Below, one piece after another: positions 6,719 through 43,710 of a stretch of 45,015 nt of DNA. The notes under the pieces were generated by a model, which was not told the origin of the DNA, ran no database searches, and was given only the letters and a program-made list of their open reading frames with translations. The DNA lies in contig JAGLTB010000018.1 in the NCBI GenBank assembly GCA_023270155.1, forward strand, positions 1 through 45,015, written 5' to 3'. The position numbers were made by a program, and so were the translations under genes. Position 1 is the first letter of the stretch. The number at the start of each line of letters is the position of its first letter. This stretch comes from Candidatus Heimdallarchaeota archaeon. Lineage in GTDB: Archaea; Asgardarchaeota; Heimdallarchaeia; Heimdallarchaeales; Heimdallarchaeaceae.

Positions 6719-6823
6719 CAATTCTTTAAAATTGTTACAAGAATCAACCATAGCCAATGATGTAGTTGCAACGATCTGAACCCTGATGATCGACTTTTGG
6801 CTGAGGCACCATTTGTGGTAAAT

Positions 6824-7102
6824 ATGACTAAATACTGCTATATTCACACAACAAAGGAATCTTTCAAGGAATGCGAGAATTGCGGAAATAACATATGTCA
6901 TGATTGCTCTGAAAAGTACTGGCATACTAATGCTATTTCAGCTATGTTCTCTCCTCAGAAACAGACACAACAGGAAATGTCTTATTGTCCAAGCTGTCTA
7001 AGAAAAGCTAAAATCAGAAATGCAATAATTACAGGTTTTCTTCTTGTAGTGATCTTAGGTATAATTATATTTACAATTATATTCGCTAGATTCGGATTTT
7101 AA
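6824..7102 (+). CDS. Small B-box-like zinc-finger membrane protein
   Basis: From the ATG at 6824 the protein is 92 residues; an in-frame TTG at 6797 would add nine. The first 60 residues hold a Cys/His pattern like B-box fingers (CYIHTTKESFKECENCGNNI, then CHDCSEKYW, then YCPSCLRK). These give at least seven Cys and several His able to bind two zinc ions. A single hydrophobic helix (AIITGFLLVVILGIIIFTII) ends the protein, leaving the finger probably on the cytosolic face. I cannot name a function. It converges with another zinc-ribbon membrane protein 44 bases away. Confidence 0.6.
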   Translation: MTKYCYIHTTKESFKECENCGNNICHDCSEKYWHTNAISAMFSPQKQTQQEMSYCPSCLRKAKIRNAIITGFLLVVILGIIIFTIIFARFGF

Positions 7103-12244: not shown

Positions 12245-13228
12245 CTAGAATCCCATAGTATTCAAAATGTGTTTTACTATCTTGAATTTATATCCTACAT
12301 TAATGACATCGTTAACATTGGTTGTCATGCCAATCAATAATTTACCTTCCGAACAATCCTCAACTATAATTTGCACTACTCCCGCATTAAGTGCTTTTAT
12401 TTCATCCTCTGATCTAATCATTTCATAGATAACTCGTGGAAATTTGGTTATTGTTTCCAGAACGTAGATTATCTTTCTCTCTTCAAGATTTCCAGCGTAC
12501 AACTCTCCCATTACTCCGTCTTCCTTTGGAAAAATATATGCTGAAGCAGCAGATGCGTTACATCCTCTTATCGAAGAGAATAGCAAAGAGGTGATTGCTC
12601 TCTTATTAGCTTCATCAAGTATCTCCTGTGTCATCTCGCTTGCAGGTATTTTAGGTACTGTTTCAAATGGTCTTATTTTCTCATAGGTTTCTAATCTGGT
12701 TTCCATTCTTTCTTGTTCTACAGTCTTTATGGTTGGAACAATCTCTTGTTCTTCAATCTCTCCAGGTGGTACTACTTCTTTTTCTAATTTCTCGATACCA
12801 ACACGTGTAAAGACCTTGTTCAATTCTTCCCTATAAACAGTAACATCCCGGATTTTCTTCATTACGGTTTTTATTAGTTTAGACGGAGTATCGTGTGTTA
12901 AAGTATTAAGAATTGTAGATCCTAGTAATTTTATATATTCAAGAATTCTAGGCCTAACTTCAGCACTTATATTTTCAACTCGTGATACAAACAAAATAGT
13001 TACATCAAAGAATGTGATATAAGTTGCCCTGTACTTTCCTCGAAATATGGTGATCTCATTATACCTTCTCACCCACTGATAGAATTCAATAGGCTGGATG
13101 AAATATCTATGAACCTCTTCTTTTTCAAATTCGTTAATAATTTGCTCTAATTCGAAGATATTAATACCTTCGAGATCATAAACAATTACTGCTACTAAAG
13201 GGCTAATATCAATTTTAGGGAATGGCAT
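12245..13228 (-). CDS. Longin/roadblock-like two-domain protein A
   Basis: This 327-residue protein has two small alpha/beta domains joined by a charged linker (about 150-200). The N-terminal domain (8-115) has paired strands (PLVAVIVYDLEGINIFE), then ITIFRGKYRATYITFFDVTI, then a helix. That order resembles longin domains. The C-terminal domain (about 205-325) has the helix-strand-strand-helix-strands-helix order of roadblock/LC7 domains. It matches the C-terminal parts of the proteins at 13427-14005 and 14740-15840: KFPRVI versus KYPPVI and KYPEVI, LNAGV versus LDTGV and LDAGD. Such folds usually dimerise and dock small GTPases at membranes. Assignment is from pattern and inferred secondary structure, not a database match. 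Confidence 0.55.
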   Translation of the reverse strand: MPFPKIDISPLVAVIVYDLEGINIFELEQIINEFEKEEVHRYFIQPIEFYQWVRRYNEITIFRGKYRATYITFFDVTILFVSRVENISAEVRPRILEYIKLLGSTILNTLTHDTPSKLIKTVMKKIRDVTVYREELNKVFTRVGIEKLEKEVVPPGEIEEQEIVPTIKTVEQERMETRLETYEKIRPFETVPKIPASEMTQEILDEANKRAITSLLFSSIRGCNASAASAYIFPKEDGVMGELYAGNLEERKIIYVLETITKFPRVIYEMIRSEDEIKALNAGVVQIIVEDCSEGKLLIGMTTNVNDVINVGYKFKIVKHILNTMGF

Positions 13229-13338
13229 AAGACCTCAACTAGACATAACTAGGTATTTTTTGCTAATAAATGTTGTTGGACTTTACTTTTTTTTTGATTT
13301 TTGAAGCAGAAGTGGAAAAAAACCGTTCTCCTTCGACT

Positions 13339-13351
13339 TTTTATAACTTTA
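13339..13351 (+). promoter_or_regulatory. TATA-box candidate in the gap between divergent longin/roadblock-like genes
   Basis: The 198-base gap between the two divergent paralogues contains TTTTTATAACTTT, about 75-90 bases before the ATG at 13427. A second element, GATATAAAC (13400-13408), is closer to the gene but may be too close for a leader. The ribosome-site candidate is TGAGGA just before the ATG. I see no operator-like repeat. Confidence 0.35.
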
Positions 13352-13426
13352 TTCCATTAATCTAATGTACGAATACAAAGGAAATATTTTTAGATTTTAG
13401 TGATATAAACAGTTTGAGGATAAACA

Positions 13427-14005
13427 ATGAAAGAGAAGAATTCAGATAAATCTCCATCAAGTAATATAATTACAAGAAAAAGAAAAGTTCCTCCAAAAGA
13501 TCTTTTCGTTGAAATGGAAGATACTGCATATGAAACACTAAATATCTCTAAAAGAAAAATACAAACTGGACAATATCTTAAAGAATTCTTAAAAGAAACT
13601 TCTTCAGCTGAAGCCGTTATAGAAGCTATTCGTGTTACTATTGATGCGCTTCTAGATAGCATATCATCTGATATGAAATCTTTATCAGCAGCTGCCTTAG
13701 TCCCTCATCCAGAAAGCTCTGAAACTAAAGCAATAGTTAGAGGACCATTAAGCAGAGAAATAGTCAAGAAAATACTAGGGATTTTCAGAAAATATCCTCC
13801 TGTAATAAACGATCTACTTGGATCTGATGAAGAAGTAAAATTCTTAGATACTGGTGTAGGATACGTTGTTATGGAAAACTGTCAGAAAGACAATTATCTA
13901 ATTGGAATAGTACAAAAACAAAAGGATGTCGATGAGCTTTCCAGAAAGTTGAGACATGTCCAAAATGTTGTTATAGATAATACACTTATCATTGATGAAT
14001 TGTAA
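13427..14005 (+). CDS. Roadblock-like single-domain protein C
   Basis: At 192 residues this is the shortest of the three paralogues. It has a basic, probably flexible N-terminus (1-50, with TRKRKVPPKD) and then one roadblock-like domain (about 55-190): helix AVIEAIRVTIDALLDS, strands, then helix VKKILGIFRKYPPVINDLL. Strands around VKFLDTGVGYVVMENCQ and YLIGIVQ follow, and a last helix ends the protein. It lacks the N-terminal longin-like domain of its neighbours. It is divergent from protein A and convergent, with a 7-base gap, on the zinc-ribbon membrane protein. A dimerisation partner for A or B is a reasonable guess. Confidence 0.55.
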   Translation: MKEKNSDKSPSSNIITRKRKVPPKDLFVEMEDTAYETLNISKRKIQTGQYLKEFLKETSSAEAVIEAIRVTIDALLDSISSDMKSLSAAALVPHPESSETKAIVRGPLSREIVKKILGIFRKYPPVINDLLGSDEEVKFLDTGVGYVVMENCQKDNYLIGIVQKQKDVDELSRKLRHVQNVVIDNTLIIDEL

Positions 14006-14012
14006 TCTAAAT

Positions 14013-14675
14013 TCAAGGTTTTCCCATTTTTAGAGATACTTCACAATTTGGACATATTTTCTCATTCTCTTTAATACCTGAGAAACAATTCCAACAAATT
14101 GTTCCTGATAACTCTTTTTCTGTATAATTCGAAATCACTTGTTTGATTCGATCTACTAATTCAATAGCTTTGTTTTTTTGATTTAATCTTCTTTTAGTAA
14201 TCAAAGGATTGAGAGCTATATTGAGGATATAAAAGAGTCCAGCACTACAAGTTAGTACTATCCCAAAAACTCTCAACATTAAGAATCTTTCTTGAACATA
14301 ACCTATGACAATAACTGGTATTAGAATAGCCATTACTAAGAAAAGAATTAACCATACACTATTTTTCAATCTTAGAGACCTTTTATCCAACCAATTTCTA
14401 AATAATTCTGGAATTAGCACGATATCTGATGCTATTTCGATACTCATTGAATTAGATTCTACATAATCTTGTATGGATATTATTTCTCGTTTAATGAATT
14501 TTCTTGATGTTAAATGTAACGTGTATTCATTGATTTCTTCAATTACATAGTTTTTTTGCAGGAACTCCTGCTTGATAAAATCGAATAATGCTGTAAGATT
14601 CTTCACCTTGCTTTCAATGTCAATTGTTGCGAGAATATTCCTACCTATCACACTATCTGATATTTTTATCACCAC
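14013..14675 (-). CDS. Two-helix membrane protein with C-terminal zinc ribbon
   Basis: This 220-residue protein begins with a soluble alpha/beta region of about 100 residues. Two membrane helices follow (near 107-127, WLILFLVMAILIPVIVIGY, and 133-155). A cytosolic tail ends in a zinc ribbon: CWNCFSGIKENEKICPNC (near 193-210). I do not recognise a family. It is last in a same-strand run with the acidic protein (15885-17150) and longin/roadblock-like protein B (14740-15840), so it may be the membrane anchor of that group. Confidence 0.65.
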   Translation of the reverse strand: MVIKISDSVIGRNILATIDIESKVKNLTALFDFIKQEFLQKNYVIEEINEYTLHLTSRKFIKREIISIQDYVESNSMSIEIASDIVLIPELFRNWLDKRSLRLKNSVWLILFLVMAILIPVIVIGYVQERFLMLRVFGIVLTCSAGLFYILNIALNPLITKRRLNQKNKAIELVDRIKQVISNYTEKELSGTICWNCFSGIKENEKICPNCEVSLKMGKP

Positions 14676-14739
14676 TATTATTCTAAACAGATACTTTGGA
14701 AATTCTGATTTCTCAGTTTAGAAATTAAGATCTGTTATG

Positions 14740-15840
14740 TTAAAAAGATGATTTCAAAAATTCATCCATCATAGTTTTGACTACTTTGAATCTCTTAGCA
14801 ATTACTGGGATTTCATCTCTATTCTTAGTTATACTTACTAACATCCCGCTTTCTGCCTCTTCAAGAATAACTACTCCATCCCCTGCATCTAATGTTTTTT
14901 CTTCTATATCACTTTCCAATGTTTGTTTGATAACTTCTGGATATTTCGAAAGAATTCCTAAGACAAATTCTGCATGTTTGTCAGTCATCCCAAAGGTTAG
15001 GGTTTCGAGTCTCCCATCTTCTCCTGTATGAACAAAACATACTCCTGTTTTTGTTGACAAACCTTTAACAACAGACGAAAGGACTCTTTCAATAGCTACT
15101 CTCTTGGTTTCTTCCAACATCTGTTGAGTCAATTGAACTTTTTTATCTTCTTTTTTTTCTTCTGGTTTATCTGCTTTAAATCCAATGAATTCAAGAAGTC
15201 CTTCAACTTTCTCTTTTCCTTCAGCTGGTTGAGTACTTACACTAGAAGTCATTGATGACTGACTAGTTGATGGAGTAGAACTAGTAGTATATGGAGAAGG
15301 TGTGGATGTAGGAGATTGTGCAACTGGTCTTTCTGGTTTATCAGGTATAACTGGTTCTTCTTTAACAACAGCAATGGGTTCTGCTTCAACTTGTTGTGGT
15401 TTCTTTGTTGGATAAAAATCATATTTAACTTGACTAGCAGCTCTCTCTGATATTAAATTACCGAGTTTCTTGATGAGAGCAGTTTGGGAACGAGGTTCCA
15501 TTTTATCAATAGCACCATAATCCTGTAGTTGTTCAATTAATTTCTGCTTGATTATATTGATAATTTTCACGGATTCTTGTTCTGGTGAATCAGGTAAGAA
15601 CATGCAACTTAATATGATGTTGTAAAATAGATGATAATCTACTCTGAATACCTCATTGATAAGAGTGATTGTTTGTGATTTTTTCAGCTCTTCTCTTATT
15701 TTTACACTGGTGTCTATCACCTGAAAAATAGTAGAAAACGGAGTTTTTTGATTAATAACTTTATCAAAAACCATATCTTCTTCTAATGTAAATAGACTAA
15801 AGCCAACAAACTTATCCCAGGGCAATTCAAAGTCACTCAT
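14740..15840 (-). CDS. Longin/roadblock-like two-domain protein B
   Basis: This 366-residue protein has the same plan as protein A. The N-terminal domain (about 1-140) begins FVGFSLFTLEEDMVFDKV and has the strand pair ITLINEVFRVDYHLFYNIIL followed by helices, longin-like. The linker (about 150-235) is rich in Pro, Ser and Thr and probably disordered. The C-terminal roadblock-like domain (240-366) has TQQMLEETKR, GILSKYPEVI and KTLDAGDGVVI, and ends in a helix. It is the middle gene of a probable three-gene operon: acidic protein, 44-base gap, this gene, 64-base gap, zinc-ribbon membrane protein. A regulatory or adaptor role is inferred from the fold only. Confidence 0.55.
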   Translation of the reverse strand: MSDFELPWDKFVGFSLFTLEEDMVFDKVINQKTPFSTIFQVIDTSVKIREELKKSQTITLINEVFRVDYHLFYNIILSCMFLPDSPEQESVKIINIIKQKLIEQLQDYGAIDKMEPRSQTALIKKLGNLISERAASQVKYDFYPTKKPQQVEAEPIAVVKEEPVIPDKPERPVAQSPTSTPSPYTTSSTPSTSQSSMTSSVSTQPAEGKEKVEGLLEFIGFKADKPEEKKEDKKVQLTQQMLEETKRVAIERVLSSVVKGLSTKTGVCFVHTGEDGRLETLTFGMTDKHAEFVLGILSKYPEVIKQTLESDIEEKTLDAGDGVVILEEAESGMLVSITKNRDEIPVIAKRFKVVKTMMDEFLKSSF

Positions 15841-15884: not shown

Positions 15885-17150
15885 TTACTTCTTCTTGCGT
15901 TGTTCTTTCTTTGCTTCTTTCTTAGCAAGCTTTTTCTCTCTTTTATCTTTATTTCTTTCCCACTGCTTCCATTTCTTTACATTCTTTGATGATTCCTGTC
16001 CGAATACTACGGCTGAATAAGCTCTCCCTTCTGTTTGTCCCATGTCCTTTACATTAAACTCTTCTTCTTTTTCCCTTTGTTTAGTCTCAGCTAACATCTG
16101 TTGAATGATCTCTTCCCTTCTCTTAACTTGCTCATCATCAAGATCTGGTATCACCTCAACTTGTTCTTCAATTTCAATTGCACTGTCAGTACTTACTTCT
16201 GCAGTATCTATTTCTGAAATTTCTTCCGGTTCTGGAACGGAAACAAACTCAGTCTCTGGAAGTGGTTCTGGTTCAATCTCTTTAAGTTCTGTCGTCTCGA
16301 TTATTGGTTCAATACTGGCTTCGGGTTCAAAGGAAACGACTTCCTCGACTTGAGGTTCTTCAATTTGGGAAACTTCTGCAACAACCTCTATTGGAGATGT
16401 TTGTTCAGCAATTAAGTCAACTTTCTCATCAGTTACTGGAGTTTCGATTTCAAGAGGAATTATCTCTTCTTCAGTAATTGGAACGCTCGAGGCTTCATCA
16501 ATAAAAACCATTTTATGAACATCTTCAGGAATGTGTTCAGGTTTAAGAAGTACTTCTTCGTTTATCACTGGTTCAGTAACAATTGGTTGAGACAGATTTA
16601 CAGGTTCAAGGTTTTGAATTTGCTCTTCTAGTTTTATTTCTTCTATCTCTGGTTCTTCCTTTACCTCTTCTACTTGAAATTCTGGTTTTTCAACTTCTTT
16701 TAATATTTCACTTGCAGTAATTATTTCAGGCTTTGATTCAGGAGGTTCCTCCACTGTTACTGCTTCCTCTTTTGGAAGGGGAATTTGCTCCTTTTCAATA
16801 ATCTTTTTTAAATCCTCTTGATCTTTTAAATTTAATTCTTCTTCTATTTCTTCCCCTGATACAGCTTTGGCTAAACCTATTGTAGCTTCTTCTAGACCAA
16901 TTTTTCTTTCAATTTTCTTTGCTTCAACTTCATTTATTGTTTCAGTTATTGGTGCTTCTTTTGTTACTTCATCCACTGCTTTTGCTTTCTCTTTCTCTTC
17001 TAGAACCTTCTCCTTTGCTAGATTATAGAGATATTGAGCAAATCGAGTGATATTCTTCTTATCCCATTCGAGTATATCTTCGCTTTCGTTTGAATTCATG
17101 GGTAACCACTCTATTGAAATTAAGGAATCTCTACTCACAATACAACTCAT
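15885..17150 (-). CDS. Acidic, largely disordered protein with basic tail
   Basis: This 421-residue protein is dominated by Glu, Pro, Val, Ile and Thr in an irregular repeat style (EEP, EIE and VEEV strings), with almost no Cys, Trp or Gly in the middle. That suggests an extended, disordered region about 300 residues long. A short N-terminal helix region (about 25-55, WDKKNITRFAQYLYNLAKEK) and a C-terminal block are better ordered. The C-terminal block includes REEIIQQMLAETKQ, which echoes TQQMLEETKR in the next gene's roadblock-like domain. The protein ends in a lysine-rich tail. ATG 17150 or the internal ATG at 17099 could be the start; neither has a strong ribosome site. It may be a scaffold; no family is recognised. 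Confidence 0.6.
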   Translation of the reverse strand: MSCIVSRDSLISIEWLPMNSNESEDILEWDKKNITRFAQYLYNLAKEKVLEEKEKAKAVDEVTKEAPITETINEVEAKKIERKIGLEEATIGLAKAVSGEEIEEELNLKDQEDLKKIIEKEQIPLPKEEAVTVEEPPESKPEIITASEILKEVEKPEFQVEEVKEEPEIEEIKLEEQIQNLEPVNLSQPIVTEPVINEEVLLKPEHIPEDVHKMVFIDEASSVPITEEEIIPLEIETPVTDEKVDLIAEQTSPIEVVAEVSQIEEPQVEEVVSFEPEASIEPIIETTELKEIEPEPLPETEFVSVPEPEEISEIDTAEVSTDSAIEIEEQVEVIPDLDDEQVKRREEIIQQMLAETKQREKEEEFNVKDMGQTEGRAYSAVVFGQESSKNVKKWKQWERNKDKREKKLAKKEAKKEQRKKK

Positions 17151-17200: not shown

Positions 17201-18346
17201 GTGAATGAAAATTCATCTACAAGTTCTATTATTGTTGTTTATCTAATTTCTGCTAATAATAAACTAAACTTTAATAATCTAACAAATTATTATAATTTGA
17301 TGAACTCTTCTGTGAAGCCACTGTTAATCCAACTAGTTAGTTCTTTCTCTTATTACCTAGTAGATGAAGCACGTAAAGAAAAGGGAAGCGAAATTACAGA
17401 AGTTAAAATAGATGATATTGAATACTACAAAGCTAGTGGGAGATTTGGAGAGGTATATGTGGTAGACGTTTTTTATACATCTGTAGTGGGAAAGCACAAA
17501 AGTAAGCTTGCGATTAAGTTTATAGAAAGCTCAAATGATGTAATAACAGAGATAAAAAATTCATCATTTCTTGAAAAAAAATTCTCAACTCGATCATTTG
17601 TTCAAGTACCAAGATACATCTATGTAAATTTGAAACAACCTACATTTATAGCATATGAAGGCATTACTGGAGTAAATTATGAGGATGCTGATAGCGTTCT
17701 TGATAAAAGCTTCTGGGCAGGATATGTTTTATCCATAATTCATGAAGGAAAGCCAAGATCAGTCATCACTGATATTTATGAAGAATTATATCGAAGATTG
17801 ATTTTGACTATTTTTGGAGGAGAAGAAATCGAGCAAGAAATTATGGGAAAATCTAAAGATCTACTTGAAATGGTGGCGAACTCTCAAGGTGGAAGTGATT
17901 CATTCGGAGATTTTCATCAGAGTAATTTAATGATAAGAACAACTCCTCATGGAGAAATCGTCAATATTGCTATTATAGACCCAACATTCTGGATGCAAGG
18001 ATCATTCGACCGATTTGAAGATATTGGTACATTCTTTGGAAGGCAAGCTTTACTCGAATACAGAACTTCAAGAACTCTGATAAGTACTATCTCTGACATT
18101 AAGCAATTTATAGAAGGATATAATGTTCATCTAAAAGAGATAAATAACGTTCCACTCGAACAGTTGTATCCAAAAGGTTATCCAATTGATTTCTTTCTAT
18201 CAATTTGGGCTATGATGGATATTATAGATAAAACTAGCACACTGAATATACCAGTTGACCATCCTGATGTTATTCTATTGAAGGAATTAGCAATTAAATT
18301 CTTAACAGAACACCCAATTAGCAACGAAGTGAATACTTTTCTTTAA
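17201..18346 (+). CDS. Protein-kinase-fold (APH/choline-kinase-like) protein
   Basis: This 381-residue protein has the kinase fold. It has a glycine loop resembling eukaryotic kinases (SGRFGEVYVV, 79-88), a probable ATP-binding Lys106 in LAIKFIE, and the catalytic loop GDFHQSNLM (Asp237, Asn242) of the aminoglycoside phosphotransferase type. The metal-binding Asp260 is in AIIDP. The first 50 residues carry a Ser/Asn-rich, partly hydrophobic stretch before the fold. The substrate, whether protein or small molecule, is unknown. The tail-anchored JAMM gene follows 45 bases downstream on the same strand, so the two may be co-transcribed. Key catalytic residues are intact, so it is probably active. 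Confidence 0.7.
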   Translation: MNENSSTSSIIVVYLISANNKLNFNNLTNYYNLMNSSVKPLLIQLVSSFSYYLVDEARKEKGSEITEVKIDDIEYYKASGRFGEVYVVDVFYTSVVGKHKSKLAIKFIESSNDVITEIKNSSFLEKKFSTRSFVQVPRYIYVNLKQPTFIAYEGITGVNYEDADSVLDKSFWAGYVLSIIHEGKPRSVITDIYEELYRRLILTIFGGEEIEQEIMGKSKDLLEMVANSQGGSDSFGDFHQSNLMIRTTPHGEIVNIAIIDPTFWMQGSFDRFEDIGTFFGRQALLEYRTSRTLISTISDIKQFIEGYNVHLKEINNVPLEQLYPKGYPIDFFLSIWAMMDIIDKTSTLNIPVDHPDVILLKELAIKFLTEHPISNEVNTFL

Positions 18347-18391: not shown

Positions 18392-19234
18392 ATGACTCAA
18401 TATAAAAAAGAAATCTTGATTTCCCCCTACGTATTGGCAAAGATATTGTCAGTAGATTCTATTGATCCGACTAAAGAATCAGCAGGTGTTCTACTAGGGT
18501 ATTTGGATGAGGATGGAGAAACGTTAGTTGTAACAGATTTTGATACAGGTAGTCAAAAACAAACGTCCACATTTGTTGCTTTAGACGATGAAGCTCTTGT
18601 TCAGATAGTTGCAGATTTACAAAAGAGAGATAGAAATGTAACAATAGTTGGATGGGCTCATACTCATCCATCGTTTGGTTGTTTTCTCTCAGGAACTGAT
18701 AAAAATACTCAACGAATATACCAAAACCTTTTCTCACATGCTGTTGCTCTTGTCGTAGACCCATCTAAATATTACAACACTTCACAGCAGAAAGATTTGG
18801 AAATCCAATTTTTCAGATTAATCGATGATCTTGATTACAAAGCAATTCCTTATGGAATATATTTTGATGATCTTACTCAACATCTATCTAATCTAGTAGA
18901 AGTTGATATCAAATGGGATATCCCCCAACTTTCAAAGGAGGAGGTTAGGAAACTTCATCAGAAACTGGAAACTATAGTCTCTCCAAAGCTTCTTGAAAAT
19001 GATAAAAAACTACTTCATGGTTTTGTTGATATACTAAGTGAGACAAGAGAAGAGCTGGTGGATGTTGGAGAAGGTAAGGAGATTTTAGAATCTATTGATA
19101 AGAAATTAAACATGATAAGTGACAATGTTAATCAAATATATAATGAAGAAACATTCAATCTTTACGCAGTTCTCAATATTATTGCTGTTGTAATGATAGC
19201 AATTTCTTGGTTCCTGATTGCGTTTTTAACTTGA
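18392..19234 (+). CDS. Tail-anchored JAMM/MPN metalloprotease, Rpn11/CSN5-like
   Basis: This 280-residue protein starts with an MPN domain bearing a complete JAMM zinc-protease motif: Glu29, then GWAHTHPSFGCFLSGTD, in which His90, His92, Ser100 and Asp103 fit HxHx7SxxD. The motif reads much like eukaryotic Rpn11 and CSN5 (HSHPGFGCWLSGVD), which remove ubiquitin or NEDD8. A helical region follows (150-250). The extreme C-terminus is one hydrophobic helix (about 257-280) with nothing after it, the layout of a tail-anchored protein with the protease in the cytosol. No ubiquitin, E1 or E2 gene is in the window. It is probably transcribed with the kinase-fold gene upstream. The motif is certain; deubiquitinase activity is inferred. 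Confidence 0.85.
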   Translation: MTQYKKEILISPYVLAKILSVDSIDPTKESAGVLLGYLDEDGETLVVTDFDTGSQKQTSTFVALDDEALVQIVADLQKRDRNVTIVGWAHTHPSFGCFLSGTDKNTQRIYQNLFSHAVALVVDPSKYYNTSQQKDLEIQFFRLIDDLDYKAIPYGIYFDDLTQHLSNLVEVDIKWDIPQLSKEEVRKLHQKLETIVSPKLLENDKKLLHGFVDILSETREELVDVGEGKEILESIDKKLNMISDNVNQIYNEETFNLYAVLNIIAVVMIAISWFLIAFLT

Positions 19235-26232: not shown

Positions 26233-28308
26233 TTATACCTTATACGATTTAAGATTTCTTTTTGATATCTTTGTTTTACACATGGGACATTCATTCTTTA
26301 TTTTCATCCACTGCTCCATATGATCGTCATGTGCAACATTGGAACAATTTGGACATTCTAGGATGCTATCCCCTCTTTTAATTAAACCTTGACAGACTGA
26401 ACATTTTGAAGGAATTTCTTCACAGTTTTTACATGGTTCATATGCTGATTTGATTATATGTCCACAGTTTAAACAGTGCATTTTTAGTGATGGTAAGATA
26501 AGTTCTCCTTTCCTCTCGAAGTATGTACTAGTAAGACTTCCCTTGTAATATCCATGAGCAAGCAATTGACAGATGGTTCTAAAAATATCATGTTCCATTA
26601 AAGAGAGATCAGCAGCAATAATATTGAGTCTGATTTTTTTCCTTCTTGATTTTTCTATCTCATTAACTATCCGGACATAATTGTCTCCTAACTCTTCCAA
26701 TTCCCTATTAGGCAGAAATTTTTGATAAGATAATACATTTAGAGAATTTCCTCTCATTTCCAGATTAACTAAACCTGAACCTGTTAATTCGTAGATTATA
26801 TTTCTAGATGCATTTAGGGATTTACTCCAGTTTTTCTGAATGCTGCTTAATGATACTTTCTTATTCGCTGTAATAAATCCGAATATTTCTTGATAATGAA
26901 TGGGGAGGTCTTCTAATTGCGTGAGAGGAGGAAAGAAAGGAATCTCATCTGGTTGTAACCGATTCCCCACAATTGTGCCTTTTATCAGACCTTTACCATA
27001 AAAACCATACAGCCTTTCTTTGGCATAGAATTTGTCTACCCCCAGTGCTAAAGCTATATCTCTAACATTAATCTGTTTTTTTGCAATAACCATTCCAAGT
27101 AGGATCTTCTCCCATCTATCAAGAGTTCCTTCTTGAGTTCTACTATATCTACGAATACTTTCAATATAAAGAGTAGCACCTTTTATTGTCCCAGAAATGA
27201 ATCCTTCCAGAAGAAGTGTTATAACACCTTCTAAAATCTCACCAGTTGTTCTATTCATGAGAGCTCCTAGTTTTTTAAGAGGGATTCTGTCTTGGGTAGA
27301 TAACAATCCAAACAAAGCTTCATAATTAAAGAAAGAAAGAGTAGCCATTTCCTCAATGGTTCGTTTTGGTTTTAACTCAGGAATAACAATTGGATTGACA
27401 TAATTTGTTTCTGTAAAAACTACTTGAAAAGTTCCTCTTGCGGTAAGAAAAGCTAAAATTTTCATTACTTCTATAGGTTCCTTGCCTACAAACTTAACTA
27501 ATTCTTTAATTGAGACTTTCTTTCTTAATATTGTGTATCCTGCAATATCTTTCTCAACTCCCTGTAAGGAAGATAGTGGGAGGATTCTAGGTGAAATATG
27601 ATATTTTTTCACGTTAATGAAAACACTTGAAACTCCAACTAATTTTGATCGAATCTCAAACTGGGCTTCTAGTTTTCTATAAAGCATTAGAAAAGACAAT
27701 TTTGTAAATACCTGCTCTCTGGAAAAACCAGTGTGTTTTGCTACGTTTGCCAATTCAGCATTTCTTAGCATCATACAAACACCCACAATAAAAGTATCCT
27801 CTGCGGAAATTGTAACTTTTTCAGGTGGTTTCCATATCCAATTTGAAATGAATTCTTTGTTTTTTATTTGTCCTATTAACAATCCTTTGCTAATAAAGTG
27901 CTTCAGATGATCTAACAGAATGCTGAGTTTTATATTAGCAATCCCAGTTATCTCTTTTAAACTTATTTTCTTTGAATATGCTAATAAACCTAGGATAGCT
28001 TTTCGAATAGAGGTTAAACGACCAGGATTTGTTTGTGGAAATTTATAGATTGATGCTATAACAAATTTATCTTTTCTGTAAAAACCTCTGATAGTTAACG
28101 ATTGTATCAGTAATTGGATATACTCTTTAATTGCTTCTAAATTAATCTCATGTTTCTCGGAGAAATCTGCTAGATTTAAATTACGATAGAGAAATAATTG
28201 TGTTAAAACCAGAGCACGTTTAGCTTTTGATAATTTTGGCTCAGGAAGTTCCAGTTTTTTAAAATTGATGTTATAAACATCTTCTCGCTCGTAACTCAGT
28301 TCAATCAT
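26233..28308 (-). CDS. Winged-helix repeat protein with C-terminal zinc ribbon and RING-like finger
   Basis: This 691-residue protein is mostly a chain of five to seven degenerate winged-helix units, with repeated helix pairs such as RKAILGLLAYSKKISLKEI, ITRWEKILLGMV-type segments and KKVSLSSIQKNW. Two zinc sites end it. The first is a ribbon with Cys612, 615, 626 and 629. The second has Cys636, 639, 652, 655, His660, His663, Cys674 and 677, in the order CSVC...CPNC...H..H...CPMC. That eight-ligand cross-brace order fits a RING/PHD-like finger such as the Nse1-type variant RING, with one Cys replaced by His. RING fingers recruit E2 enzymes. It may be an E3-like or a DNA-binding regulator; neither is proven. 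Confidence 0.6.
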   Translation of the reverse strand: MIELSYEREDVYNINFKKLELPEPKLSKAKRALVLTQLFLYRNLNLADFSEKHEINLEAIKEYIQLLIQSLTIRGFYRKDKFVIASIYKFPQTNPGRLTSIRKAILGLLAYSKKISLKEITGIANIKLSILLDHLKHFISKGLLIGQIKNKEFISNWIWKPPEKVTISAEDTFIVGVCMMLRNAELANVAKHTGFSREQVFTKLSFLMLYRKLEAQFEIRSKLVGVSSVFINVKKYHISPRILPLSSLQGVEKDIAGYTILRKKVSIKELVKFVGKEPIEVMKILAFLTARGTFQVVFTETNYVNPIVIPELKPKRTIEEMATLSFFNYEALFGLLSTQDRIPLKKLGALMNRTTGEILEGVITLLLEGFISGTIKGATLYIESIRRYSRTQEGTLDRWEKILLGMVIAKKQINVRDIALALGVDKFYAKERLYGFYGKGLIKGTIVGNRLQPDEIPFFPPLTQLEDLPIHYQEIFGFITANKKVSLSSIQKNWSKSLNASRNIIYELTGSGLVNLEMRGNSLNVLSYQKFLPNRELEELGDNYVRIVNEIEKSRRKKIRLNIIAADLSLMEHDIFRTICQLLAHGYYKGSLTSTYFERKGELILPSLKMHCLNCGHIIKSAYEPCKNCEEIPSKCSVCQGLIKRGDSILECPNCSNVAHDDHMEQWMKIKNECPMCKTKISKRNLKSYKV

Positions 28309-41621: not shown

Positions 41622-43643
41622 TTATCTCTGTACTTTTCTTCTTATGAATATTACAGCTATACCAGCTATGGCTATTATAGGTAATACAAGTAATGTAGTA
41701 AATTCAGGTCCTACTGGTGCTACTTCTCCAGGTGTAGGATTACTTACAACAAAATCTGCATCACAATCATCTGAATCTTCATTAGGTGGACTACGCTGTA
41801 ATGTTTGATCTTCCCCTGTTGAACTTCCTGACCAACTAACTACTCCTGATACAGATCCTGATCCCCATGCAACTGCATCTCTTATAGTTTCATCTGGATC
41901 TTTGAGAATTATTTCATCACCTGTGTTTGCTAATGCAATATCACCTAATCCATAATCAGCTGCTGATACAGTGATTCCTAAAGCTGACATTTCGCTTACA
42001 TACGCTGCACTGCTTTGAGCAAACACTAATACTTCATTTGCATTAATTTGTGCTCCTTCAGGTAATGTATAAGTTCCTTCATTGTCTGTCAGTGTCCATC
42101 CTTCAATTGCTAAAGCAAAACTAAAATCATTATAGATTTCAACGAATTCACCATCAGGTTCAGTGTCGGCATCGTACCTTACTTCCGTTATTAGAAGTTT
42201 CCAATCCACAGTATTCATAATATTGATATTTTTCTCAATTTCTATTGGTGATCCTGCTGTGGGAGTTCCAACAACCTTTACTGTGTGAATACCATCAGTG
42301 TAAGTAGTAGTATCTACAACATGACCAACAGTTCCTGTAGGACTAACCCATGTATGAACTGAAACTGAATCTATGAGTAGTTCTCCAGATGTATAGGTAT
42401 TTATCGAGAATATTGCTTGGAAGTTAAAATTACCATCAGCTATTCCTCCAGCTTTTGGTGATAGAAGATCTACTGGTTGTGCAAATCCTACTGGTGTTTC
42501 ACTTACAGCCCAATCCTCATCAAAAACATCTTTGTAATAAGCTGCGATATTAGAATTCTTAACAATAGCTCCTGATTCTCTGTTAGAGTCAACAGAGTTG
42601 TTAGACCAATTAATACTTGAAATTTGTACAGTTTCACCATCAACTAAAACATACTTGTTGTGATTATGCCCTAATCCTTTGAAGAATTTAACCTGTACTC
42701 CGTGACTGATGAGAGTTTCGGTAACGTTTTCATTTGCTACTCCTGGTTCTGGGATTAAGACTCTTATAGCAACACCTCTTAGTGCAGCAGCTAAAACATC
42801 ATCGAGTAAATCACAGTTAAATTTCATATATTGCAATTCTAGATCGATAGAAGTTGTAGCAGCATCAATGATTCCTGAGAGTAGTTCATAACTATTATCT
42901 GGTGCAAAAATAGGTGTAACTTCTGTATATTCATTAAATGTGTCAATGATAGATACTGGTGTATAAGTACCAGTTGTTTCATTAGCTTGTAAACTACCAC
43001 CACCTGAACCCAGTGTGTATGGAGTAGAGATTAATCCATCAGCAATGAATACGTTTTCAAAATATGTTGCAATACCTGCATGGTTGAATAGAAAACCCAT
43101 TTCTCTATTTTTTCTAGCACCTGAATATTGAGGAATACTTGAAGGAGCCCAATTACCTGAGTAAACAAATGTTTCTATTCCATCAATTATCCAGAATTTT
43201 GCATGAGTAAAGACGAATTCTGTTCCATTAGTCCAATAAACATCGATACCTGCGCTTTTCATTCTATAAGCAGCTTCTTCTGTATAAGCATCCTCAAAAG
43301 AGTTAACTCTGTCATCAGAAAGCTGAACTATAACCTCAACACCTCTCTTATGTGCTTTAATTAATGCATTAACTAAAGGCTCACTAGAAAGTGTATATAC
43401 TTCAAGATGAATCGATGTTTGAGCATGTCTTAACGCTTTATGTATCACATCATAAGCATAATCGGGTCCCACTATTGTAGTTACGTTTATAGTTCCAGTA
43501 AATGTTTGTGTTGTAATAGCTTTTGGAGTAATTTCGGAACTGTCATTAGGCAAAATTATTCCATTTGTTGTGTAAGATGTTTTTATTGCTGTGAATAATA
43601 ACATCCCTAGAATTATAATATTAACAAAATATTTCTTTTTCAT
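41622..43643 (-). CDS. Secreted, membrane-anchored phospholipase D-like protein with lamin-tail domain
   Basis: From ATG 43643 the protein is 673 residues. A KKK start and hydrophobic segment form a signal peptide (1-25). Two PLD-type HKD motifs are intact: THAKFWIID (His147, Lys149, Asp154) and HNHNKYVLVD (His328, Lys330, Asp335), each followed by an SxNW segment. A beta domain follows (about 380-480), then a lamin-tail domain (about 485-600). The end has VGPEFTTLLVL, a membrane helix and RRK, resembling PEF-type anchors. It could be a surface nuclease or phospholipase. An upstream GTG at 43664 is possible, but the TATA-like element 43669-43678 favours ATG 43643 as leaderless. Confidence 0.8.
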   Translation of the reverse strand: MKKKYFVNIIILGMLLFTAIKTSYTTNGIILPNDSSEITPKAITTQTFTGTINVTTIVGPDYAYDVIHKALRHAQTSIHLEVYTLSSEPLVNALIKAHKRGVEVIVQLSDDRVNSFEDAYTEEAAYRMKSAGIDVYWTNGTEFVFTHAKFWIIDGIETFVYSGNWAPSSIPQYSGARKNREMGFLFNHAGIATYFENVFIADGLISTPYTLGSGGGSLQANETTGTYTPVSIIDTFNEYTEVTPIFAPDNSYELLSGIIDAATTSIDLELQYMKFNCDLLDDVLAAALRGVAIRVLIPEPGVANENVTETLISHGVQVKFFKGLGHNHNKYVLVDGETVQISSINWSNNSVDSNRESGAIVKNSNIAAYYKDVFDEDWAVSETPVGFAQPVDLLSPKAGGIADGNFNFQAIFSINTYTSGELLIDSVSVHTWVSPTGTVGHVVDTTTYTDGIHTVKVVGTPTAGSPIEIEKNINIMNTVDWKLLITEVRYDADTEPDGEFVEIYNDFSFALAIEGWTLTDNEGTYTLPEGAQINANEVLVFAQSSAAYVSEMSALGITVSAADYGLGDIALANTGDEIILKDPDETIRDAVAWGSGSVSGVVSWSGSSTGEDQTLQRSPPNEDSDDCDADFVVSNPTPGEVAPVGPEFTTLLVLPIIAIAGIAVIFIRRKVQR

Positions 43644-43710
43644 ATCTATACATAGAAATTTCACTTAATAAATATCTTACTACAAAACAAGAAAGCAGGA
43701 AAAAAGATGA

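Follow-up and report, generated by a model that had tools for sequence, protein, structure and literature searches.

The 45,015-nucleotide stretch of DNA analysed here (the window), contig C18, belongs to a 2.6-Mb archaeal assembly from an Asgard archaeon of Candidatus (Ca.) Heimdallarchaeaceae. It encodes three clustered proteins, A, B and C, whose C-terminal domains are, judged by sequence comparison, paralogous far beyond chance, and for which structural modelling supports a roadblock fold. A (12245-13228, minus strand, 327 amino acids, with the motifs KFPRVI and LNAG) and B (14740-15840, minus strand, 366 amino acids, with KYPEVI and LDAG) have an N-terminal domain that C (13427-14005, plus strand, 192 amino acids, with KYPPVI and LDTG) lacks. 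Together with the more widespread relatives described below, these proteins define a longin–linker–roadblock architecture of which the cluster is a family-level expansion. In eukaryotic cells the roadblock fold builds docking platforms for small GTPases, and we tentatively propose that A, B and C, with a neighbouring acidic protein, D, may form a scaffold comparable to Ragulator.

A shared C-terminal domain with a predicted roadblock fold

Across the three proteins, the last ~130 residues can be aligned from end to end, with 26-29% identity. Smith-Waterman scores for this domain were 164 (A-B), 129 (A-C) and 126 (B-C) against shuffled means of ~30, giving z-values of 25.8, 19.6 and 16.6, respectively, with the observed score reached by 0 of 1000 shuffles in each case; profile-profile comparison of the three domains returned E = 1e-13, 2e-11 and 3e-11. 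The domain covers residues 195-327 of A (12248..12646, minus strand), residues 232-366 of B (14743..15147, minus strand) and positions 13610-14002 in C, a protein made up of a basic N-terminal tail and the roadblock-type domain only.

AlphaFold2 (AF2) models were built on an alignment of 18 sequences for B and of 12 sequences for A. Residues 233-361 of B were modelled as helix-β-β-helix-β-β-β-helix, the roadblock topology with its five-stranded sheet, at a predicted local distance difference test score (pLDDT) of mostly 75-87. When the B model was compared with the PDB by Foldseek, it matched LAMTOR2 (6ehr_B, E 5e-4), MglB, Thor-RB (7f8m), the MK-D1 roadblock (9jue) and bacterial roadblocks, with a probability of 1.00 to roadblocks and target TM-scores of ~0.54-0.66 for single-domain matches; all 50 of the PDB matches listed were roadblock-type proteins or roadblock/longin-containing complexes. 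The C-terminal domain of A was itself modelled below pLDDT 50, and the term roadblock in A and C therefore rests on homology to B. Residues L294, P301, V303, K315 and L317 (B numbering) are invariant or nearly so, and are located in the central helix and β3, the elements through which roadblocks dimerise (PMC10933270).

Sequence libraries did not recognise the domain. With PF03259 (Robl_LC7), no member of A, B or C scored above the cut-off (one of 45 gave E = 0.16), and a search of the genome with this profile did not return A, B or C. Pfam and NCBIfam scans of the three proteins and their orthologues gave no credible match, and PDB sequence searches, run with profiles of whole proteins and of domains, gave none that was significant; the top match, sub-threshold at E = 0.17, was CvnB5 (3leq), which we take to be a roadblock protein from Cvn operons. 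Comparison by hhalign of the A/B/C domain with the Pfam-type roadblocks of its own genome gave a probability of 3%.

N-terminal domains and linkers of A and B

Residues 11-143 of A were modelled at pLDDT ~80 as ββαβββαα with no N-terminal helix (AF2, DSSP), in line with the longin pattern of ββαβββαα without an N-terminal helix and with two C-terminal helices (PMC10933270). Foldseek matched this part of A to LAMTOR3/MP1, COPZ1, the VAMP7 longin and adaptor AP sigma chains. The models thus support a longin-like domain at the N-terminus of A (residues 1-145; 12794..13228, minus strand; ββαβββα(α)), for which there was no Pfam match and an hhalign probability of 0.15% to the Asgard longin profile. 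The N-terminal domain of B (residues 1-145; 15406..15840, minus strand) is conserved, with 81% mean column identity within the family, and may be longin-like; its hhalign probability to the same profile was 0.5%. With the N-terminal profiles of A and B, phylum-wide searches found the family itself alone, apart from sub-threshold noise. Between the N-termini of A and B there was no detectable sequence similarity (z = 1.2; hhalign probability 1.4%), so that their shared two-domain plan is based on position and on the predicted folds.

In both proteins the linker evolves faster than the flanking domains. The linker of A (approximately residues 146-194; 12647..12793, minus strand; pLDDT < 50), which varies in length, shows 42% identity in orthologues compared to 55% and 82% for the two domains, and the Pro/Ser/Thr-rich linker of B (residues 146-231; 15148..15405, minus strand), 62-97 amino acids long in orthologues, shows 38% compared to 77% and 76%.

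These results bear on an earlier interpretation of the cluster made from the DNA letters and translations (the sequence-only reading), which had described A, B and C as longin/roadblock-like paralogues. Its shared C-terminal domain, recognised from the motifs given above, is borne out by the shuffling and profile comparisons, its roadblock fold by the B model and Foldseek though not by any sequence library, and the Asgard setting by the genome, which is that of a Heimdallarchaeota archaeon. The two-domain plan that it saw in A and B holds in so far as both have an N-terminal region and a faster-evolving linker, but the two N-termini are not detectably alike; they were read as longin-like, which AF2 and Foldseek uphold for A, while the model of this part of B is too low in confidence (pLDDT at or below 60). 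Of the checks that it had suggested, structure prediction of single chains yielded a roadblock for the C-terminus of B and a longin for the N-terminus of A, but the other two domains fell below useful confidence, and profile comparison with roadblocks and longins gave the low hhalign values reported above.

Conservation of the cluster and its relatives

The C-terminal profile detected A, B or C in 21 of the 23 genomes of the family; beyond it, the profile matched one protein strongly, in a sister family of the order, and one marginally (E = 0.005), in a further family. Each of the three is single-copy, and they occur in the same order, with D, in three genera of Ca. Heimdallarchaeaceae. The wider block JAB–kinase-like–D–B–(membrane open reading frame)–C–A–AIRS-related–Bud32–radical SAM–Kae1 is conserved across the genus and Ca. 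H. endolithica, the latter missing the membrane open reading frame (ORF). In a tree, A and C each form a group of one origin, and B is not resolved around the root of the three. In one genome (L047:2870-3452, G009) two overlapping frames make up the C gene, which reflects either a frameshift of the metagenome-assembled genome or a real break.

A fourth paralogue, E, is encoded away from the cluster in the window's own genome (L073:2694-3608; G000:C59) and is single-copy through the family. It adjoins a radical-SAM gene, as does the sister-family protein L028, a common neighbour that suggests orthology of the two. In E and its order-level relatives (F), an N-terminal longin is followed by a variable linker and a C-terminal roadblock-type domain. 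The A/B/C C-terminal profile matched the F domain at E = 1e-10 and the E domain at 1e-6; by this measure of sequence, A/B/C, E and F have C-terminal domains of a single family. An E/F profile matched proteins in 184 of 228 Asgard genomes; among the matches listed outside the order, nearly all involved its N-terminal part. Twenty proteins taken from these matches included many longins fused to Arf-/Ras-like GTPases, with others fused to membrane or unknown parts, and several such Asgard longins scored above the cut-off of Pfam PF19036 (the first longin of FUZ, MON1 and HPS1). These profile matches strongly suggest that the E/F N-terminus is an Asgard longin, of the type elsewhere fused to Arf/Ras-like GTPases. 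In Heimdall and other Asgard lineages, for example in L155, L157 and L152, an E/F-type longin is followed by multi-pass membrane regions.

Since longin–linker–roadblock proteins of the E/F kind occur in more than one family of the order and E/F-type longins occur across Asgards, the architecture is real at the level of the order. Within one family it has expanded into the A/B/C cluster, with N-termini too diverged to be recognised by sequence in A and B and none in C. By analogy with the longin–GTPase–roadblock arrangement described in MK-D1 (PMC10933270), it is an attractive idea that the linker may now stand where a GTPase formerly separated longin and roadblock.

The neighbouring protein D

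D is encoded ~45 bases upstream of B on the same strand, in an ORF at 15885-17150 for which alignment suggests a start at 17099 (15885..17099, minus strand, ~404 amino acids). The protein contains 27% Asp plus Glu, varies in length and is mostly disordered, with four short conserved motifs in an otherwise variable chain. It was found in 17 genomes of the family, in each of them with B and adjacent to it, and was absent elsewhere in the class. By its motifs and its position directly upstream of B, D is a candidate strap or scaffold subunit. Its C-terminal conserved motif reads RREEIIQQMLAETK..., and its C-terminal 12-mer, EIIQQMLAETKQ, resembles helix α1 of the B roadblock, QLTQQMLEETKR, with a score of 37; this score was reached by 0 of 1000 shuffles of the last 100 residues of D and by 7 of 1000 shuffles of whole D.

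A possible scaffold and the alternatives to it

The reading that we tentatively prefer, and regard as possible, is that A, B, C and the strap D make a Ragulator-like scaffold for a GTPase encoded elsewhere. A, B and C would together build a single roadblock/longin scaffold particular to Heimdallarchaeaceae, in which the C-terminal roadblock domains would pair via the central helix and β3, probably as heterodimers. A second interaction layer would come from the longin-like N-termini of A, and perhaps B, on flexible linkers, and D may thread along the roadblock pairs by short helices, like LAMTOR1/p18 in Ragulator, where p18/LAMTOR1 is established to wrap two roadblock heterodimers (PMC5680233). 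The assembled platform would hold or regulate a Rag/Arf-type small GTPase. We favour a scaffold because of the folds, the single-copy set of A, B, C and D, the D motifs and the likeness of D to a B helix, and because the conserved residues lie at the expected roadblock dimer interface; a GTPase link is favoured because the E/F longin type is fused to Arf/Ras-like GTPases across Asgards.

Several observations weigh against this scaffold. The AF2 models of A and B are of monomers, and the low-confidence N-terminus of B was modelled as mostly helical. No PDB sequence match linked A, B or the shared domain to LAMTOR chains. C lies on the opposite strand, and A, B and C are therefore not one operon, an arrangement that we considered and dropped. 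The resemblance of D to the B helix is a single 12-mer that was noticed afterwards rather than predicted, and is therefore treated as a lead. Finally, Pfam scans of the ORFs in the window revealed no small GTPase, so the GTPase client is a guess. This absence is in itself weak evidence, because in MK-D1 the genes for GTPases generally do not share operons with those for roadblocks or longins (PMC10933270).

The same evidence can be read in other ways. A, B and C could be separate homodimeric GTPase regulators, i.e. MglB-like platforms acting as guanine nucleotide exchange factors or GTPase-activating proteins, duplicated so that each has its own GTPase, with D functionally unrelated. MglB indeed ranks with the best Foldseek matches, the Asgard roadblock structures solved to date are homodimers (PMC10933270), and paralogue E is kept alone, away from the cluster. 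We nevertheless consider separate regulators rather unlikely, as the single-copy trio stays together with D in three genera, which paralogues with independent clients need not do, and no GTPase is a neighbour. Equally doubtful, in our estimate, is an adaptor or scaffold that works independently of GTPases, comparable to dynein roadblock light chains or clathrin-adaptor small chains, in which the folds would serve for dimerisation and for binding peptides such as D. This would suit a GTPase-free context and an N-terminus of A that matches COPZ1, AP sigma chains and VAMP7 as well as LAMTOR, and longin/roadblock-fold proteins such as SNAREs do act outside GTPase regulation (PMC10933270), but the two-domain relatives carry a longin type that is otherwise GTPase-fused. 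That the folds are misassigned, AF2 having produced look-alikes from shallow alignments of a lineage-specific family of another fold, would accord with the failure of Pfam, NCBIfam and PDB sequence searches, the low profile probability to the genome's own roadblocks and the poor model of the shared domain in A, but is highly improbable given the confident and exact roadblock topology of B, the roadblock-related nature of every PDB match listed, CvnB5 as the best sub-threshold sequence match, and homologous relatives with recognisable Asgard longin N-termini.

Comparison with known systems

The tentatively preferred scaffold of A, B, C and D has in common with Ragulator (LAMTOR1-5)/EGO its roadblock-fold subunits (LAMTOR2 and LAMTOR3 as top matches in the Foldseek comparisons), and D, which is long and disordered with short conserved stretches, resembles LAMTOR1 in kind. 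It differs in that A, B and C are without sequence similarity to any LAMTOR and A (maybe B) adds a longin domain; moreover, the strap of Ragulator is membrane-anchored, whereas the candidate strap D is known by context and motif, with no demonstrated lipid anchor. The more specific proposal of a Heimdallarchaeaceae-specific Ragulator-like complex, in which at least one of three paralogous roadblocks has a longin, a LAMTOR1-like D straps them, and duplication gave rise to the whole, whether independently of the eukaryotic complex or in parallel with it, we judge to be unlikely.

MglB, Thor-RB (7f8m) and the MK-D1 roadblock (9jue) share the fold of the C-terminal domain. MglB and the Asgard roadblocks are single-domain homodimers, whereas here there are three clustered paralogues, two of them with N-terminal extensions, that Pfam Robl_LC7 does not detect. 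The locus also departs from the MglA/MglB system, the Pfam scans of window ORFs having found no GTPase domain and hence no adjacent MglA-type gene. Fusions of the longin–GTPase, roadblock–GTPase and longin–GTPase–roadblock kinds are documented in Asgards (PMC10933270; PMC4917890), and a Heimdall longin–TRAPPC3 fusion has been described (PMC10933270). As in the GTPase fusions, longin and roadblock occur here in one chain with the longin first, but a disordered linker takes the place of the central GTPase domain. MON1, FUZ and HPS1 (PF19036) are related in that Asgard longins homologous to the E/F N-termini pass this Pfam cut-off; A and B do not match PF19036, and we know of no roadblock domain in MON1, FUZ or HPS1.

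In the searchable literature, which included few subscription papers and no supplementary tables, we came across neither the linker-joined longin–roadblock architecture nor the A/B/C cluster. Asgard roadblock and longin domains and their GTPase fusions are known; the linker-joined architecture and the cluster, not found described, would be new. The two-domain form had been thought possibly undescribed in the sequence-only reading, and the literature does hold GTPase-fused or flanking forms with no bare-linker join, but the plan is not confined to the A/B/C cluster: sought across Asgard genomes, as had been suggested, it recurs in the dispersed paralogue E and in other families of the order.

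For membrane identity and nutrient signalling, eukaryotes rely on small-GTPase platforms built from several roadblock/longin subunits. Both the folds and the GTPases are present in Asgard archaea but, to our knowledge, assembled multi-subunit complexes have hardly been shown in them. At this locus, four candidate subunits are retained together in a family near the eukaryotic branch; current domain libraries miss them, and their small size would permit co-expression and testing.

Other genes in the window

The A and C genes are divergent and the B and C genes convergent. Between C and B lies a gene for a membrane/zinc-ribbon protein with two transmembrane segments (14013..14675, minus strand) and a C-terminal CWNCF...CxxC zinc ribbon, with ~25-30% identity between congeners against 65-90% for its neighbours. 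Considered as a core part, it was dropped because of its fast evolution and its absence from Ca. H. endolithica; it is probably not a core part. The sequence-only reading was silent on this ORF, inside the interval it covered, and on D, just outside, which may tell more about the cluster than any other neighbour.

Between D and the JAB gene, 17201-18346 encodes a conserved protein of 345-381 amino acids with kinase-like GDFHQSNL...IIDP motifs, of aminoglycoside/choline-kinase type by eye, for which no Pfam match was found above the cut-off. The JAB gene (18392-19234), syntenic with the cluster, encodes a JAB1/MPN (JAMM) protease-like protein with a C-terminal membrane anchor, possibly a tail-anchored deubiquitinase. 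Also syntenic is 6797-7102, encoding a 101-amino-acid FYVE-like zinc-finger protein (E 5e-4, below the Pfam cut-off). Further along the window, 26233-28308 encodes a 691-amino-acid protein with a RING-type zinc finger at its end, just below the Pfam cut-off, and 41622-43664 a protein with two phospholipase-D domains and a lamin tail domain, plus a TrmB-like match.

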